Shown here in pieces: positions 1 to 8,260 of a DNA stretch of 64,000 bases. Position 1 is the stretch's first letter. Each line of letters starts with the position of its first letter. The stretch spans positions 5,811,001-5,875,000 of the forward strand of contig NC_134031.1 of NCBI RefSeq assembly GCF_964204645.1, written 5' to 3'. The position numbers and the translations under genes are program-made. Origin of the DNA: Tubulanus polymorphus. Lineage: Eukaryota; Nemertea; Palaeonemertea; Tubulaniformes; Tubulanidae. The notes below the pieces were generated by a model. It saw only the letters and a program-made list of their open reading frames with translations, ran no database searches and was not told the origin of the DNA.

Positions 1-600
1 AACGATGAGGTATTTTACCCTATCTATGTGCAGCATATTAAAACGAAATGGAATCTATTACGAATTTTCTGGGAATTTTCTTTGCACATTCAATTTCAAT
101 GTAAACAATGAGAATGTCTTGTGTGACAGTTATGATTTAACCCCAAGTCAGTGAGACATAATGTAGTGTCATCTGCGTATTGTTTGATTTTGTAAAATTA
201 TCACTATCATGTAGAGTAACGCGCTCATGGGACACCTCTTTCTAAAGTCAATGGTTAAGGAGCAGTTTTGATATATTGGATGGAATTTTCTCCGAAGCTA
301 AAATATTCTCACGTTTTGACGATCGAAAGCTTTCATCTGATCACCAAAATGCCTCTACAGTGGAACCTCGTTACAGCGAACTTCACAGGAACAGAAAATT
401 TGTTCGTTATAACCGATAGTTGGCGCAATGTATGAAATCAATCAAATTTTCTTAATTGGCACGAAATTCTATATTTGTAATATCCGATGAATCGTTGTAT
501 CCGAGTTCGTTGTATCCAGGTTCCACCGTAGTATTCATCCCCACTTGGGGCATATGTACCTATCGACCAAGACCCATCATTTTTTCTTATTTTTTTGTAG
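1..600. other. Intron or upstream flank of the CRD-LDLa gene
   Basis: No exon is seen here. The stretch ends in a T-rich tract and AG acceptor at 599-600. Because the CRD exon that follows lacks the first two cysteines of the domain, this is probably intron. It carries one mariner-like MITE at 358-528. Confidence 0.6.
358..528. mobile_element. Mariner/pogo-like MITE with TA target duplication
   Basis: The left end begins CAGTGGAACCTCGTTAC. The right end, read on the opposite strand, begins CGGTGGAACCTGGATAC, so the ends are terminal inverted repeats of about 20 bp. TA dinucleotides flank both sides (356-357 and 529-530), the usual target duplication of Tc1/mariner and pogo transposons. At 171 bp it is too short to encode a transposase. 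A related copy lies at 29924-30090. Confidence 0.65.
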
Positions 601-754
601 GAAAGTATAAGAGGATTTTTGGACCGTGTTGATAATTATATCGTGAACGTAACGGATACGTGCAGTTTGCATTTGGGCGCGTTCGCGTGCAGCGTGGCAT
701 TCCCTCGATGCCACGAAGGACATAATATCCCGCCATGCAGACGCTACTGTAACG
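601..754 (+). CDS. CRD exon 1 of 2 in window
   Basis: The acceptor is TTTTTTGTAG before 601 and the donor is GTACGT at 755. It encodes the middle of a Frizzled CRD: a helix, then C, the motif FAC-x5-PRC, and PPCRRYCN, matching the FLC...PVC...PPCRSxC core of Frizzleds. It contains five of the ten CRD cysteines. The exon ends in phase 1. Confidence 0.85.
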
Positions 755-3700
755 GTACGTGTTCCGAGAATCTAATTACGTTTTCTAGCCAGCCATCTAT
801 AATCGAATTTATGAAAACCTAAAGGGATTTCGCAAACGACCTACTCACTCCAACCTAAGCACGCGAACGCATTGGAAACTCGTAATGATTACCAGTCAAT
901 GTAACAATTTAACTCGGCCGCAGTTCGCTTAATCACGTGAAATACGTGTACTTCAAAGTTAAACATGAACGAATTTCTGATCGCAACCTGTGGAATCAAT
1001 ACAAGGATTTCTTTTCTTAAAATGAATCTATATCTTGAATCAGAGTTCTGATTCCCATGTTAGAAACCAGATTTGAGCAAAACATTCTGTAAATTCGATC
1101 GCCGATCACGCAGCTTCTTCGATTTTCGATTTAAAAATCAAACCCCGCCTGTTTCGCTCCCGGTAGGTGTGGTGGGTTTGTAAGGGATACCAAATAAAAA
1201 CTACCAAACAAAACAGGGTCAATACATATTTTAAGATAAAAATAAACCGTAAGCAAAGTACTGAAATTTCTTCTTATGCTGATTTTGTAATGCATGATAT
1301 TTCATATCTTACGATAACCCGTTTTAATCCTATAGATATGATGGCTATATGTAAAAATGTGATACCGCAAGTGAAATTACCGCACTCGAATAACCTGCTG
1401 TGCGGTGTTCTACCCGATTCTGACGATCCGAATGTTTGCGTACCAAAACCGAAAGAAGGTGAGTTATCCGATTCTGCAAACCGGATTCGTTTACCTCGCA
1501 TTACTCGGACACGACCACCTCGGACTTTTGACTTATACCGGGACAAATACTAAATCATTGTTCGGACTTCATAGCGTACTTTCCTATCCTTAACTCGCAC
1601 TTCACTTACCTCGGACCAGTTTTGCCGGTCCCAGCTTGTCGGTGGCGAGTCTCGATGCCATCGGGTTCGAATCCCTGTCATGGAGGATGAACTGTACTTC
1701 GCATTCCGAAATTTCAAAATCAATCTTAGTCAAAATCAATCTTCTTTTTTTAGTCAATATCTCACATCTGACGATGATCTCTAGTGTGAGATCGAAACGT
1801 CGTGTTCTTATATTTTAGATTGTTTTGATGAATAAATTCTCGATTTTAGATTTCTTTTAATCTGTAGATAGTGGGTTTTTATCTTATCATCTGTTCACCA
1901 CGTTTGAGTGTGGTTATCGTACCAATCTTAGGCGAGGTTCGCTATATGAGTCTGGGTGAAATGGGCCAAGTTGCCTAGTTTTACTTAGAGGTACTTAGAG
2001 GTGTAAACTGTTAAGGAACTTGAACAATCAACTCATATCACGTTTATGAGACTGGCCCAGGTTGGAGAGTTTGATTAGATTGGGTGGTAATGGATATGCT
2101 TTGTTTTATATTTCAGCTGATTTATGCATGGCAGACGAACATCTTTGTAAAAACGGAGCTTTCGTCACCGGCCGCAGTCACTGTATTCCGCTCGTTCGTA
2201 AATGCGACAACCACGTGGACTGCGAGGACCAATCGGACGAGTCTCATTGCAACGCGTGCACGCGTCATCAGTTTCAGTGTACGGACGCGCTGATTTGCAT
2301 TCCAAACGGTCAGCGATGCGACGGCGTTAAACAGTGCGCCGACGGCAGTGACGAGCTGGACTGCGACGGAAGCTGCGAGGTAGGGGCGTTTCGGTGCGCG
2401 CGAGGCGTTGACATCGTTACGAAACGAAAATGTATAAAACCCGCGCAGCGCTGCGACAACGCGCGAGACTGCACCGACGGTAGCGACGAATCCGACTGCC
2501 CGGCGATTAAATGCACCGACCAGGAATTCACGTGTAAAACCGGACTGAACAGATATTCGAGCGAGCCGTGCGTTTTGAACCGTCACGTCTGCGACAAAGA
2601 TTTCGACTGTTTCGACAAATCGGACGAGGCGAACTGCACCTATTCGTGCGCCGAGGGCCAGTTCTCGTGTAAGAACGGTACGATCAATCGATTCCCATTC
2701 GACGGATTTTGTATCGCCGCGTCCGAGGAGTGCGACGGAGTGGTCGACTGTAAAGACGGCTCGGACGAAGAAGGATGCGGACACGAATGTCAGGACGGCG
2801 GATTCAGATGCACGGACGGCGTCAGTCACTACACGGGCAGCGCCTGTATTCCGCTCTACGACGTCTGCGACTCGTACGCCGACTGTAGCGACGGCAGCGA
2901 CGAATTGAACTGCAACATTCCCTGCGAAACTAGCGAATTCAGATGCGTTAACGGCACCGATGTCGTACATAACGATAACTGCGTCGAGAAGGACTGGAAA
3001 TGCGACCGACTGCGCGATTGTAGCGACGGCAGCGACGAGGTGGATTGCAGCGAGTCATGCGGCGCTGACCAGATCAAATGTCACACAGGCGTCATCAAAA
3101 ACTACCCTCATCGAGGATACTGTCTGCCGGCCGAGAAAAAATGCGACGGCCGCGCCGATTGCCAGGACGGAAGTGACGAAACCGGCTGCGCCGAGATACA
3201 ATGCGCCGCAGACTATTTCGAATGCGTAAGCGGTACCGATAAGAACGGCGATAAGTGCATCCCACGCAAGTACACGTGCGATAAAGATATCGATTGTTTG
3301 GACGGCTCGGATGAACACGGCGAGTGCGCGTACCAGTGCGCCCGGCATCAGTTTGAATGCCGAAACAGCACGGCCTTGAACTTCAACATGCACTACTGTA
3401 TCCCTGCTGAAAACCACTGCGACGGGAGAGTAGATTGTAGAGACGGCTCGGATGAACGCGAATGCGCAGTGATCGGCTGTCCGCCCGGCTATTTCAAATG
3501 CGTCAACGGAATCGATCGAATCAAAAAAGATCGCTGCATACCCGAGTTATTCGTCTGCGACCACGACGAGGACTGCAGCGACGGAAGTGACGAAACGAGT
3601 TGCACGTATTCGTGCGCGCAAGGCGAATTTATGTGTCACAACGGTACCGTAATACGTCACCCGTTCGTGGGTAGGTGTCTACAGCAACACGAGGAATGCG

Positions 3701-6700
3701 ACGGCTATAAGGACTGCTCCGACGGCTCGGACGAGTTCGGCTGCCAGTTCAAACTATGTCCGGCCGGTTATTTCCGATGTGAAAACGGAACGGACGTCTA
3801 CAACCACGACTACTGCATACCGGATGCGTATCGATGCGATTTCGACGACGACTGCACGGACAAATCCGACGAAATCGGTTGCGATTATTCTTGCAGTCCC
3901 GGAGAGTTCCTGTGCAAGAACGGCAGCATCAACATCTGGCCTTACAACGGACGGTGCCTACTGGACGCGTTTCGATGCGACGGTAAAGCCGAGTGCACGG
4001 ACGGTAGCGACGAGGAAGGTTGCGCGATCCCCTGCACGGAAGATCAGTTCAGGTGCGCGAACGGTACCGATTACATCGGGCACAAATGTATCCGCCGGGA
4101 ACGCACGTGCGACCGCGAACGGGACTGCTCTGACGGTAGCGACGAGACTAACTGCACCTACTCGTGCGAGCCCGGTAAATTCCAATGCTCTACGGGAACT
4201 GTGAACAAGTTCCCGTATTCGGGATATTGTATTTTCGACGGCGAGAAATGCGACGGCGTCATCGACTGCAAGGACGGCAGCGACGAGAGAAACTGTTACA
4301 ATATGACCTGTAAAGAAGGCCAATTTCGCTGTATGAACGGCACGGATCGTTACGGAGGCGACGCCTGTATTCCGGGCCGTTATCGATGCGACCGCGACGG
4401 GGATTGCACGGATAATTCGGACGAAAGCAGCTGCCAGTACCATTGCCCGGACGGCGAATTCGCCTGCAAGACCGGATCCATATCCGTACGCCCGTACACC
4501 GGCTACTGCTTACCGATGTCTAAACGTTGTAATGGAATCGACGAATGCAAAGACGAAAGCGACGAGCAGGGCTGCGACGAGGTGTGCGCCTCGTACGAGT
4601 TTACGTGTACAGGGGGCGTTAGCGTACACACTTCCAGACGTTGCATCCCGGAAGACAACAGATGCGATAGAGAACTGGATTGTACGGATAAAAGCGATGA
4701 AAACGGCTGCGAATATAAATGCGAACAGGGCCGCGAATTTATGTGCAAAAATGGCACCGTTAAAACGTGGCCATATCGTGGATACTGTATCCACGATTCT
4801 AACGTTTGCGACGGATTCGTCGACTGCGCTGATAAATCCGACGAAGAGAATTGCCGCCCGAACGATTCGAATTGCGGAGACGGAGAATTCTACTGTCTTA
4901 ACGGCACGGACAACCGCGACGACGACCGCTGCATTCCGATCATGCACGTTTGCGACCGCGAGTCCGACTGCAGCGACGGGTCGGACGAATCGAACTGCAC
5001 GTTCGTTTGCAAAGACGGCCAGTTCATGTGCCGTAACGGCACCATCAACCGGCCGCCGTTCACCGGACACTGCATCCTGGTCGCGAAAGTCTGTGACGGA
5101 ATTACCGACTGCACCGACGCGTCCGACGAAATGAACTGCGATTTCACGTGTCGGCCGGATCAGTTCCGATGCGGGTCAGGAACCAGTCGCCACACCGGAC
5201 GCTCGTGTATACCGGCCACGGATAAATGCGACCGTATTCCCGATTGTATAGACCAAAGCGACGAAGAAGGGTGCACGTATGATTGTCCCGATGGACAGTT
5301 TATGTGCGAACGTGGAGGATTGAACTCCTGGCCGTACCACTCCTACTGCATCCCTTCGGAGCAGAGGTGTAACGGCCGCGGCGACTGTAGCGATCTAAGC
5401 GACGAAATGAACTGCCCGAATGTCACGTGTCCTATCGGTTACGTTAAATGCGCGAACGGTACGAATAAAATGGGCCACGACTGCGTCGCCGAAATGCATA
5501 TTTGCGACAGGGATTTCGACTGTTCGGATCGCAGCGACGAAGCGAATTGTACGTACACTTGTAATAAGCCGGGCGAGTTCAAATGCGTCACTGGTACTCT
5601 TAGTAAAGGTTTGGGATACTGCTTGAGCGCGTCGAGCGTTTGCGACGGAACGAACGATTGTAAAGACGGTTCGGATGAAAGCGGTTGCGAGAGGAACTGC
5701 ACGGCGGACGAGTTTCGGTGCGTCAGCGGCGGAAACGTCTACCACGGAGGTCATTGCGTGCACCGTAAATTCGTCTGCGATCGAGACAGCGATTGCGTGG
5801 ACAATTCGGACGAGTTGAACTGTCAATACGAATGCGGCGTCAATAAATTCAAATGCGAAACTGGTAAAGTTAACAAATGGCTGTCGAGCGGTTATTGTAT
5901 TCCGATAGAGGAGCGGTGTAACGGCGCGTCGGACTGCGAGGACAACAGCGACGAAGCGAACTGTACCGAAGGCGAGGGAACGGCCCGGTGCGGTCCGGCG
6001 ATGTTCCGATGCGAGACCAGCGGTACTTGCATCGAGTCGAAACACCGCTGCGACAGACACAATGACTGCCGAGACGGTAGCGACGAGTCCGGGTGCTCGT
6101 ACAACTGCGGTACGGGAGAATGGCCGTGTCGGAACGGTACGATTAACAACTGGCCTTTCGTGGGTTTTTGCATCGGTCTAAGTCAAAAGTGCGACGGCCA
6201 TTTGAACTGTAAAGACGGCAGCGACGAATTCGACTGCGAAACGAGTGAAATAAGATGCGCGATAGACGAGTTTAAATGTTTAAACGGTACGAATTGGAAC
6301 GGCGACGTTTGCATCCCGGCTCACTTTCTATGCGATCGCGACGCGGATTGCTCCGATCAAAGCGACGAGAACGGCTGCAGTTACTCGTGTCCGAGCGGTC
6401 AGTTTATCTGCGAAACGGGCCATATCAACAGATACCCGTTTCACGGTTACTGCATCCCGCAATCGAAACGTTGCGACGACCGCAAAGACTGCGTCGACGA
6501 TAGCGACGAAATGTACTGCAATAACGTCACATGCGCATACGGCGCTGTGGCATGCACCACCGGCGCCAACTATTTCGGCAGTCGGTGCATATCGGAACAC
6601 CAACGCTGCGATCGGTACGCAGATTGCAGCGACGGCTCGGACGAGCTGGATTGCGAGTATAACTGCGAGGACGGTTACCACATGTGCAAGAACGGCTCGT

Positions 6701-7629
6701 TGTCGTTGTTGCCGGGATTGTGTTATCACGCGACCGAGAGATGCGACGGCATGCGCGACTGTCTCGACGGCAGCGACGAATCCGGCTGCGAAACGCCGTG
6801 CGCGCCGCGTCAGTTCCGTTGCTCGAACGGTAGCAACAACAACACTGGCGAAATATGCATCGATGACATTTATAAATGCGATCGGTATTTAGATTGTACG
6901 GACAGTAGCGACGAGGATGATTGCGTCTACGAGTGTACGGGCGATTCGTTTCGTTGCTGGAACGGCACGATATCGCAGTGGCCATATCGCGGTTATTGCG
7001 TTCATAAAGACAAAATCTGCGATGGCACCGACGACTGCGGAGACGCGAGCGACGAAGCCGAGTGCGATGGACAGACATGCGCGGATGATCAGTTCCGATG
7101 TACGAGCGGTTCGAATCGATATTTCCATCGGTCGCCGTGCGTTTTGAAACAGTACGTCTGCGATCGCGAATCGGATTGTACCGACAATTCGGACGAACTA
7201 GAATGCGCCTATCAGTGCCGCGGCGACCAGTTCGTCTGCAAAAGCGGTATTTTACAGGTGGCGCCTTATGCCGGATTCTGTATCGATAAAAGTCGAGTAT
7301 GCGACGGTCGCGCGCAATGCGAAGACCATAGCGACGAGCTCAACTGCACTAAGTCGTGCACGGCCAGTCAGTTTCGTTGCGTTAACGGCACGGATGTTTA
7401 CGGGTTCGACCCTTGTATCCCGGATTATCATCGATGCGATCGTAGCCGCGACTGTACAGACGGCAGCGACGAGCTAGCGTGCACCTACGAGTGTAAACCG
7501 GGAGAGTTCATGTGCGAAACTAAGACCGTCAACACTTACCCGTATTTCGGTTTTTGTATCCGAGCCGACAAACGATGCGATGGTAATCTCGATTGCGAGG
7601 ATGGAAGCGACGAAGAGAAGTGTCATTAA
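601..7629 (+). CDS. Frizzled-CRD plus 40-module LDLa protein (3' part of gene)
   Basis: Three exons, 601-754, 1336-1458 and 2117-7629, join in frame: codon GAT spans the first junction and GCT the second, both phase 1. The product shows a Frizzled-type CRD lacking its first two cysteines, which must lie on an exon left of the window, then 40 consecutive LDLa modules and a stop. Each module keeps six cysteines and the calcium motif D-x-S-D-E. No membrane helix, protease or other domain follows module 40, so the protein is either secreted or anchored N-terminally, upstream of this window. Corin and MFRP also combine a CRD with LDLa modules, but corin ends in SRCR and trypsin domains that are absent here. 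I cannot name an orthologue. Role inferred: extracellular ligand or lipoprotein binding. Confidence 0.9.
755..1335 (+). other. Intron within the CRD (581 bp)
   Basis: Runs from donor GTACGT to acceptor TTTTAATCCTATAG. No other feature seen inside. Confidence 0.75.
1336..1458 (+). CDS. CRD exon 2 of 2 in window
   Basis: Acceptor CCTATAG before 1336, donor GTGAGT at 1459. It encodes the last part of the CRD: MMAICKNV, then LLCGVLP, and DPNVCVPKP, giving the last three CRD cysteines in the usual C-x-LP-x-C arrangement. The exon ends in phase 1 and joins the LDLa exon. Confidence 0.85.
1459..2116 (+). other. Intron between CRD and LDLa exon (658 bp)
   Basis: Runs from donor GTGAGT to acceptor TTTATATTTCAG. 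It holds a SINE-like head at about 1635-1690. Confidence 0.75.
1635..1690 (+). repeat. SINE-like head with tRNA B box
   Basis: The sequence GATGCCATCGGGTTCGAATC includes a pol III B-box match (GGTTCGAATCC), preceded by an A-box-like GGTGGCGAGTCTCG. The same block recurs at 15355-15410 and 50265-50318 (+), and at 49811-49866 (-), so it is a dispersed family rather than a tRNA gene. No cloverleaf can be folded. Element ends are uncertain. Confidence 0.55.
2117..7629 (+). CDS. Giant exon: 40 LDL-receptor class A modules, terminal exon
   Basis: One open exon of 5,513 bp begins after TTTCAG and ends at TAA (7627-7629). I count 40 modules of about 40-50 residues, each C-x5-8-C-x(n)-C-x6-C-x4-C-D-x-SDE-x2-4-C. 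From module 7 to 40 two subtypes alternate strictly. Odd modules resemble FRC-NGTD...CIP....CDR..DC. Even modules carry a longer loop with PY/PF-x-GYC and CDG or CNG. Modules 2 and 29 have the short loop of ordinary LDL receptors. Seventeen modules have an N-G-T/S sequon just after the second cysteine. GC content is well above the flanks. Having so many LDLa modules without introns is unusual. Confidence 0.93.
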
Positions 7630-8260
7630 CAACCGTCTTTACGACTATTCCCCTTGTTCTCCCGTTGTCTTTTCTCGACGTTAATATTACCATTATCACC
7701 TTGACTTGATCTTTCCAAATTATGTTTTAGTTGCATTCAAAATGCTCTATGCATGTATATTTTGAAATAGCTTCTGTTTTAGAATCGATGGAGATAAATC
7801 TCACAATTTTGATGTTACATAGGTCTATACATACATATACGTATACATATAACTATTATTTCTCGTTTTGTAAACCGTTGATAATATTGTTGTTATAGTA
7901 CATTTTTTTCGTTGACGACACTTTGCGCAAATCACGTGATGCAGGTCATCCATTTTTGTCGACTGCGGTTTCGTTTTGTTATCGTATAATGTTTCATTCA
8001 GTGTCGGTCGATTTTTGTTGCATTCCAAAAATGTATCGACAACTCTGTTTGTCCGCTACTAACTTCTCGTTCCTCGTTCCTCTATCAGAAAAAACCATGA
8101 CGAATCTCGCGATGTACATAATGTATCGATCAGATTTTTGAACATCGCCCTCTATTGCTAATTTCTCGAAACTTGTATGCAGTCGTGTACATAAATATAT
8201 ATTTAATATATGTATTTTTCTACTTAAAGCAAACAATAAATGCATTTATAAGGAATGAAT
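7630..8260 (+). other. Likely 3' UTR of the CRD-LDLa gene
   Basis: AT-rich non-coding sequence between the stop codon and a candidate poly(A) signal. No domain or long open frame is seen. Confidence 0.55.
8235..8240 (+). terminator. Candidate poly(A) signal AATAAA for the LDLa gene
   Basis: Canonical AATAAA about 605 bp after the stop codon, the first clear hexamer downstream on this strand. Cleavage would fall near 8255-8265. Confidence 0.5.

Follow-up and report, generated by a model that had tools for sequence, protein, structure and literature searches.

A single-exon array of 40 LDLa modules in a gene for a predicted type II membrane protein of the nemertean Tubulanus polymorphus

Proteins of the core LDL receptor family combine LDLa modules with EGF and YWTD beta-propeller domains in a type I orientation, and EGG-1 and EGG-2 of Caenorhabditis elegans are LDL-receptor-repeat proteins of type II topology. 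The LDLa clusters described for LRP1 consist of 2, 8, 10 and 11 modules (PMC7609443), and an NPXY-type motif is described in the cytosolic tail of LDL receptor family members (PMC6912373). Corin is presented as a cytoplasmic tail and a membrane span followed by two Frizzled domains, eight LDLa repeats, a scavenger-receptor domain and a protease (PMC9138375). For the zinc-finger exon of teleost Piccolo b, amplification has been explained by unequal crossover (PMC3484663). Here we analyzed a gene in a 64,000-nucleotide stretch of the 268-Mb genome of Tubulanus polymorphus (contig NC_134031.1, here C7; C7:5811001-5875000; hereafter the window), whose last coding exon carries 40 LDLa modules. We consider, with a probability of about 0.55, that it encodes a giant type II receptor whose array expanded within its exon as a two-module unit lacking introns was duplicated, one module of each pair (B) being a ligand binder and the other (A) a spacer.

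The locus shares with the LDL receptor, LRP1 and megalin the LDLa arrays with a calcium cage and the NPXY-type tail motif (here FDNPIY), and this family was among the best PDB sequence and fold matches of the array. It differs from them in the opposite predicted orientation, in having 40 unbroken modules with long loops between the second and third cysteines (C2-C3), and in that no EGF or beta-propeller part was found by Pfam in the exons scanned. EGG-1 and EGG-2 have far fewer repeats than 40 and are not known to have a Frizzled domain. Their likeness to the protein studied here lies in being LDL-receptor-repeat surface proteins described as endocytosed (PMC13042291). Corin, as described, likewise has an N-terminal span followed by a Frizzled domain and extracellular LDLa modules (PMC9138375), the orientation here being predicted; however, the present gene has 40 LDLa modules instead of eight and one Frizzled domain instead of two, its array lies in one exon, and neither an SRCR domain nor a protease precedes the stop in the one predicted isoform, annotated from sequence. 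In Piccolo b a domain array also grew inside one gene (PMC3484663), but whole exons were multiplied there, whereas growth here would have taken place inside one exon. Our search of the open-access literature found, among the papers listed, no precedent for single-exon or intronless LDLa arrays or for Frizzled-LDLa type II proteins, a weak negative in that part of the matches lacked the LDLa term, and the gene may well be annotated elsewhere already.

The array exon and its two alternating module kinds

One frame of the window is open over 1859 codons from 2050 to 7629, ending with the stop TAA at 7627-7629. An AG ends at 2116, and the array exon begins at 2117 on the forward strand in phase 1. 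From 2119 on, the exon encodes exactly 240 cysteines, corresponding to 40 six-cysteine LDLa modules, and the stop codon lies one residue past the final LDLa cysteine. The C3-C4 spacing is 6 and the C4-C5 spacing 5 in all 40 modules, and the C5-C6 spacing is 8 in all except module 9. The Pfam scan gave 40 LDLa stretches (PF00057, E 1.7e-279); a regular-expression count gave 38, leaving out modules 8 and 30, whereas the cysteine count and Pfam both gave 40. Based on the frame, the cysteine count, Pfam and the splice join, the array at 2117-7629 is read as a single uninterrupted exon that closes the coding part of a split gene. These results bear out the claim of the initial annotation that 40 complete six-cysteine modules lie in one intron-free exon, and its coordinates for that exon proved correct. 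The G+C content of the array (54.6%) lies inside the range of seven other long frames (about 38.9-58.5%; L016, another LDLa locus, is richer than the array), and a distinct base composition of the array was dropped as a candidate feature.

Thirty-six of the 40 modules form 18 pairs in which a B module precedes an A module; modules 1, 2, 3 and 6 stand outside, and the alternation is unbroken from module 7 to module 40. The 18 B and 18 A modules were assigned by position first and their features compared afterwards, with module 29 counted as B despite its short loop. Among modules 7-40, the mean identity was 0.476 for modules of the same parity versus 0.409 for different parity, a gap reached by none of 5000 label permutations, and for 28 of the 34 modules the best match had the same parity. 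All 18 B-to-A linkers are 3 residues long, with a central Tyr or Phe in 17, whereas the A-to-B linkers (n=17) vary from 3 to 8 residues and have an aromatic residue at the same place in two. The C2-C3 loop measures 10-12 residues in 17 of the 18 B modules and 13 residues in 15 of the 18 A modules, and the residue at C4+2 is Arg or Lys in 16 B modules versus Gly in 17 A modules. Because of the module alternation and the linker contrasts, the structural repeat of the array is probably the B-A pair.

On the forward strand, modules 1-3 occupy 2125-2499 and are placed outside the paired pattern by their cysteine spacing, module 2 having a normal short loop. The first B-A pair, modules 4-5, follows at 2512-2778 (linker TYS, loops of 11 and 13 residues), and module 6, unpaired by its cysteine spacing and features, lies at 2788-2913. 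Modules 7-40 make up 17 consecutive B-A pairs at 2923-7623, as delimited by the parity permutation and by the linker and residue contrasts; within them module 29, in a B position at 5989-6096, has a loop of 5 residues by its cysteine spacing.

The C2-C3 loop is 10-13 residues long in 38 of the 40 array modules, compared with 4-8 residues in 101 pattern matches at 12 other loci; these matches count one locus twice (L001 lies within L015) and include near-identical tandem copies and two overlapping false matches in frames resembling G-protein-coupled receptors (GPCR-like frames), and the choice of the 12 loci through Pfam matches biases them toward normal loops. The short C2-C3 loop of solved LDLa modules is thus a feature absent in 38 of the 40 array modules. 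When one A module was used as the query against the genome, with the best 150 candidates scored, it recovered each of the 18 A modules in the array plus a single B module, none with an E value above 0.0064, and no match elsewhere scored better than E 0.0124. A B-A pair used as the query in the same way found matches outside the array only in frames of at least 428 codons. Because these searches score the best 150 candidates, a long-loop relative may have been missed.

We modeled one B-A pair and a four-module stretch with AlphaFold2, using alignments of 16 and 14 rows that included neither modules 4-5 nor the pair containing module 29. The best of five pair models had a mean predicted local distance difference test score (pLDDT) of 91.4 (the others 89.1 to 69.0), and the four-module stretch reached 87.7. 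Foldseek with the pair model returned LDLa pairs of CD320, ApoER2 and megalin at the top, with LDLR and VLDLR lower, at modest template modeling scores (0.36-0.57 of the query). Since the model still matches LDLa structures, the long-loop module appears to be a variant within the LDLa fold.

Six cysteines and the residues SDE are present in all 40 modules, as is an Asp at C5+2, and the calcium-cage residues are acceptable in 38. The LDLa ligand pocket uses an aromatic residue at C4-2 and an acidic residue at C4+3. In the array, Trp, Tyr, Phe or His stands at C4-2 in 14 of the 18 B modules versus one of the 18 A modules (Fisher p 2e-5), and Asp or Glu at C4+3 in 12 B modules versus none of the A modules (Fisher p 3e-5); the modules are related, and these p values overstate their independence. 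The array has 30 N-glycan sequons, compared with a mean of 10.8 after shuffling of the non-cysteine residues, and none of 2000 shuffles had as many.

Upstream exons and predicted architecture of the protein

Four introns are kept upstream of the array exon. Part of the gene lies before the window, in the preceding stretch of C7 (L005), where a candidate first coding exon of 22 residues starts at L005 2146, with a GT end in phase 0. The exon for the cytosolic tail and the membrane span, at L005 5904-6171, has an in-frame GT-AG join. The Frizzled domain is divided among three exons: its N-terminal part at L005 9816-10000 (C7:5810816-5811000) and window positions 1-9, forward strand, with a GT at 10-11 and joins in phase 0; its middle at 601-754, forward strand, in frame between AG and GT; and its C-terminal part, with the linker to the array, at 1336-1458, forward strand, between AG and GT with both ends in phase 1. 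The exon at 601-754 alone gave 30.6 bits with Pfam Fz, under the cut-off of 32.1, while the joined domain (PF01392) gave 58.1 bits (E 1.6e-15, profile positions 6-109 of 110). In translation the domain holds ten cysteines, and against the PDB it matched Frizzled domains (best E 4.3e-9). The joined exons encode 2083 residues, and their sole stop is the final one. In the genome, no close second copy of the Frizzled domain was found: the three best matches were its own exons, and the next-best (E 3.6e-7, 30% over 107 residues) lies in a 583-codon Fz-bearing frame that is probably a Frizzled receptor.

The protein has one hydrophobic span with a mean of 2.9, and no 21-residue window exceeds 1.3 outside residues 40-110. 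A type II orientation is predicted because a long N-terminal tail precedes the span. The predicted order is a cytosolic tail with FDNPIY, the span, a short stalk, the Frizzled cysteine-rich domain and 40 LDLa modules up to the C-terminus, so that the product is probably a protease-free membrane protein of type II. The FDNPIY motif of this predicted tail fits [FY]XNPX[YF], given as the rule for PTB adaptors (PMC6912373). In the exons scanned, Pfam matched only LDLa, Fz and LDLRAD1_C, the last with 35.9 bits, above its cut-off, with no single stretch passing.

Other features were also recorded along the gene. The AATAAA at 8235-8240 on the forward strand is a possible polyadenylation signal. In the intron before the array, 1744-1860 on the forward strand is a dispersed genomic repeat, identified by at least 44 other matches of 88-96% identity on many chromosomes, which is not part of the proposed mechanism. 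The intron that separates the membrane-span exon from the Frizzled exon contains a long AT dinucleotide run at about L005 6570-6850. The minus-strand open frame at 10445-10942 matches Pfam DUF4808 (39.3 bits) and is probably an exon of the neighbouring gene.

Proposed growth of the array, and other LDLa loci in the genome

The open frames of 68 modules in six other LDLa clusters of the genome have a median length of 70.5 codons and do not exceed 161, and a phase-1 AG and GT lie within 60 bases of 47 of these modules, in a loose test that was without a shuffled control and counted near-identical copies. These six clusters are accordingly read as spliced, with short frames, and introns have therefore not been lost from LDLa genes generally. 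Among 150 scored genome matches of the Pfam LDLa profile, about 58 by eye fall in frames no longer than 161 codons, and some 92 belong to frames of at least 442 codons, most of them near 1,100. The initial annotation stated that modules of LDL receptor family genes usually lie on separate phase-1 exons; within this genome the contrast with spliced LDLa genes is real for the six clusters but not absolute, given L016 and the GPCR-like frames.

At L016 (C11:5196001-5199000), a single open frame of 591 codons encodes four LDLa modules whose loops measure 4-6 residues; short LDLa arrays in one exon are thus also present at another locus. Many single-exon LDLa open frames of about 1,100 codons are found on C6, C8, C9, C12 and others (L006, L007 and L017 among them); on C6, six of them follow one another at intervals of about 10 kb. 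A Pfam scan of one such frame identified an LDLa-LRR-rhodopsin-type seven-transmembrane (7TM) receptor, which resembles GRL101-type receptors. A retroelement origin of these frames was dropped on this result, and they were rejected as paralogues of the array since the loops are 4-5 residues long in the four viewed (two in L006, one each in L007 and L017; some cut by stretch ends). At L010 (C8:8966001-8975000, with further matches to C8:8978424), identical LDLa exon modules recur at 1,509-base steps; from this recent tandem array, the genome also grows LDLa arrays by exon duplication.

On the proposed reading, a unit of two modules, about 270 bp long and free of introns, would have been duplicated in tandem inside one exon, at a time so distant that the order in which the copies arose can no longer be read from them. 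Among the three origins raised in the initial annotation, growth inside one exon fits best because the two-module period runs through modules 7-40, while unequal exchange in its recent form is contradicted and nothing came to light in support of retroposition or intron loss. Recent unequal exchange was rejected since adjacent pairs resemble each other no more than pairs far apart. Protein similarity did not decay with distance (B r -0.01; A r -0.07), and no pair lag stood out (the lowest was reached in 585 of 5000 permutations). The growth is taken to be old because of the low DNA identity between modules (mean 0.52, best of any two 0.67), the absence of any array reported by Tandem Repeats Finder inside the exon, and this lack of decay.

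The same figures bear on the concern, raised in the initial annotation, that the assembly collapsed or expanded the array. Such an artefact, including a wrongly joined frame, is highly improbable because the modules are too divergent to have been collapsed or multiplied in error, no tandem repeat was reported in the exon, and its 1859 codons are free of stops. Conversion of a spliced array into one exon, by retroposition, perhaps of the array exon alone, or by mass intron loss through reverse-transcribed mRNA, is more credible but still unlikely. The six other clusters are spliced with short frames, and the array is the last coding exon, in keeping with intron loss through reverse transcription being expected to strike 3' exons first; yet every array intron would have had to go, while growth from an intron-free pair needs no loss, and the four upstream introns are kept. 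Furthermore, neither a spliced parent for the array nor a spliced relative with long loops appeared in the searches of the best 150 candidates, nothing outside the array scoring better than E 0.0124 with the A module. A target-site duplication or poly-A tract would not be expected to survive at the present divergence.

Proposed receptor function and its alternatives

In LRP1-type modules, ligand lysines are described as docking into acidic pockets, an "acidic necklace" (PMC7609443). Together with this docking rule, the residue contrasts between B and A modules, the calcium cage and the sequons lead us to propose a multivalent receptor of the cell surface that depends on calcium. Its B modules would bind basic ligand residues through the aromatic and acidic pocket, its A modules, with their longer loop, would serve as spacers, the N-glycan sites found in B and A modules alike would shield the chain, and the FDNPIY tail would recruit PTB-domain adaptors for clathrin uptake. 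We infer receptor function, binding and uptake beyond what the residue counts themselves give.

Several results weigh against the proposed receptor and its growth by pairs. Counting only Trp, Tyr or Phe, the aromatic at C4-2 is present in 9 of the 18 B modules (versus one of the 18 A modules); four B modules have neither an aromatic residue nor His there, and six have no acid at C4+3. A sequon at C2+2 occurs in 18 modules, nine A and nine B, so glycans do not mark spacers. The pLDDT values of the pair models spread from 91.4 down to 69.0, and the first coding exon at L005 2146 is a candidate only. The GPCR-like frames (L006, L007 and L017) and L016 also have four or five LDLa modules per frame. 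In Mantel tests, co-duplication of B modules with their A partners was not detected in protein (r 0.0, 2498 of 5000 permutations as high) or in DNA (r 0.09, 1011 of 5000 as high). The signal may be saturated, but duplication by pairs then rests on the alternation, and selection for alternation could also maintain the pattern.

Alternative functions and origins of the protein were weighed on the same evidence. That the protein is not an endocytic receptor but serves structure or adhesion at a surface, such as that of the egg or an epithelium, with modules that hold partners or matrix, seems doubtful. Such a role would suit the many N-glycan sites of the array and the predicted LDL-receptor-repeat proteins EGG-1 and EGG-2, described at the oocyte surface of C. 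elegans (PMC13042291), but the FDNPIY tail and the contrast in ligand pocket between B and A modules suit uptake, and the source describes EGG-1 and EGG-2 themselves as endocytosed after fertilization. Somewhat less doubtful, though still tentative, is an independently arisen type II counterpart of the LDL-receptor-like endocytic receptors, in which a Frizzled-bearing membrane protein gained the FDNPxY tail and the B/A array, the pair being a new rigid two-domain long-loop unit multiplied in one exon. Descent from a corin-type gene that lost its scavenger-receptor and protease part and then expanded its LDLa region is compatible with the proposed receptor, and we regard it as possible to a similar, limited degree. 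The order of span, Frizzled domain and LDLa modules is the one described for corin (PMC9138375), and on the minus strand of C4:26564001-26570500 (L008) the same genome has a corin-like gene whose exons encode Frizzled, LDLa, SRCR and trypsin domains. However, the Frizzled domain matched this gene at E 2.7e-4 (35% over 69 residues), and the 583-codon frame is closer at E 3.6e-7, two values that are not strictly comparable because the domain of the corin-like gene is split between exons.

The LDLa and Frizzled parts of the protein are standard and of kinds already known. What is unusual is to find together 40 modules in one exon, two module kinds in alternation, long loops, and a type II topology, as predicted, with an FxNPxY tail. 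If the proposed reading is true, a very long modular receptor could be built without exon shuffling, and the array would offer a natural experiment, with 18 alternations between LDLa modules that bind ligand and LDLa modules that act as spacers. The reading would also suggest that FxNPxY and LDLa were combined a second time, in a protein oriented the opposite way in the membrane. The growth of such arrays could be tested directly in relatives that have fewer or more pairs.

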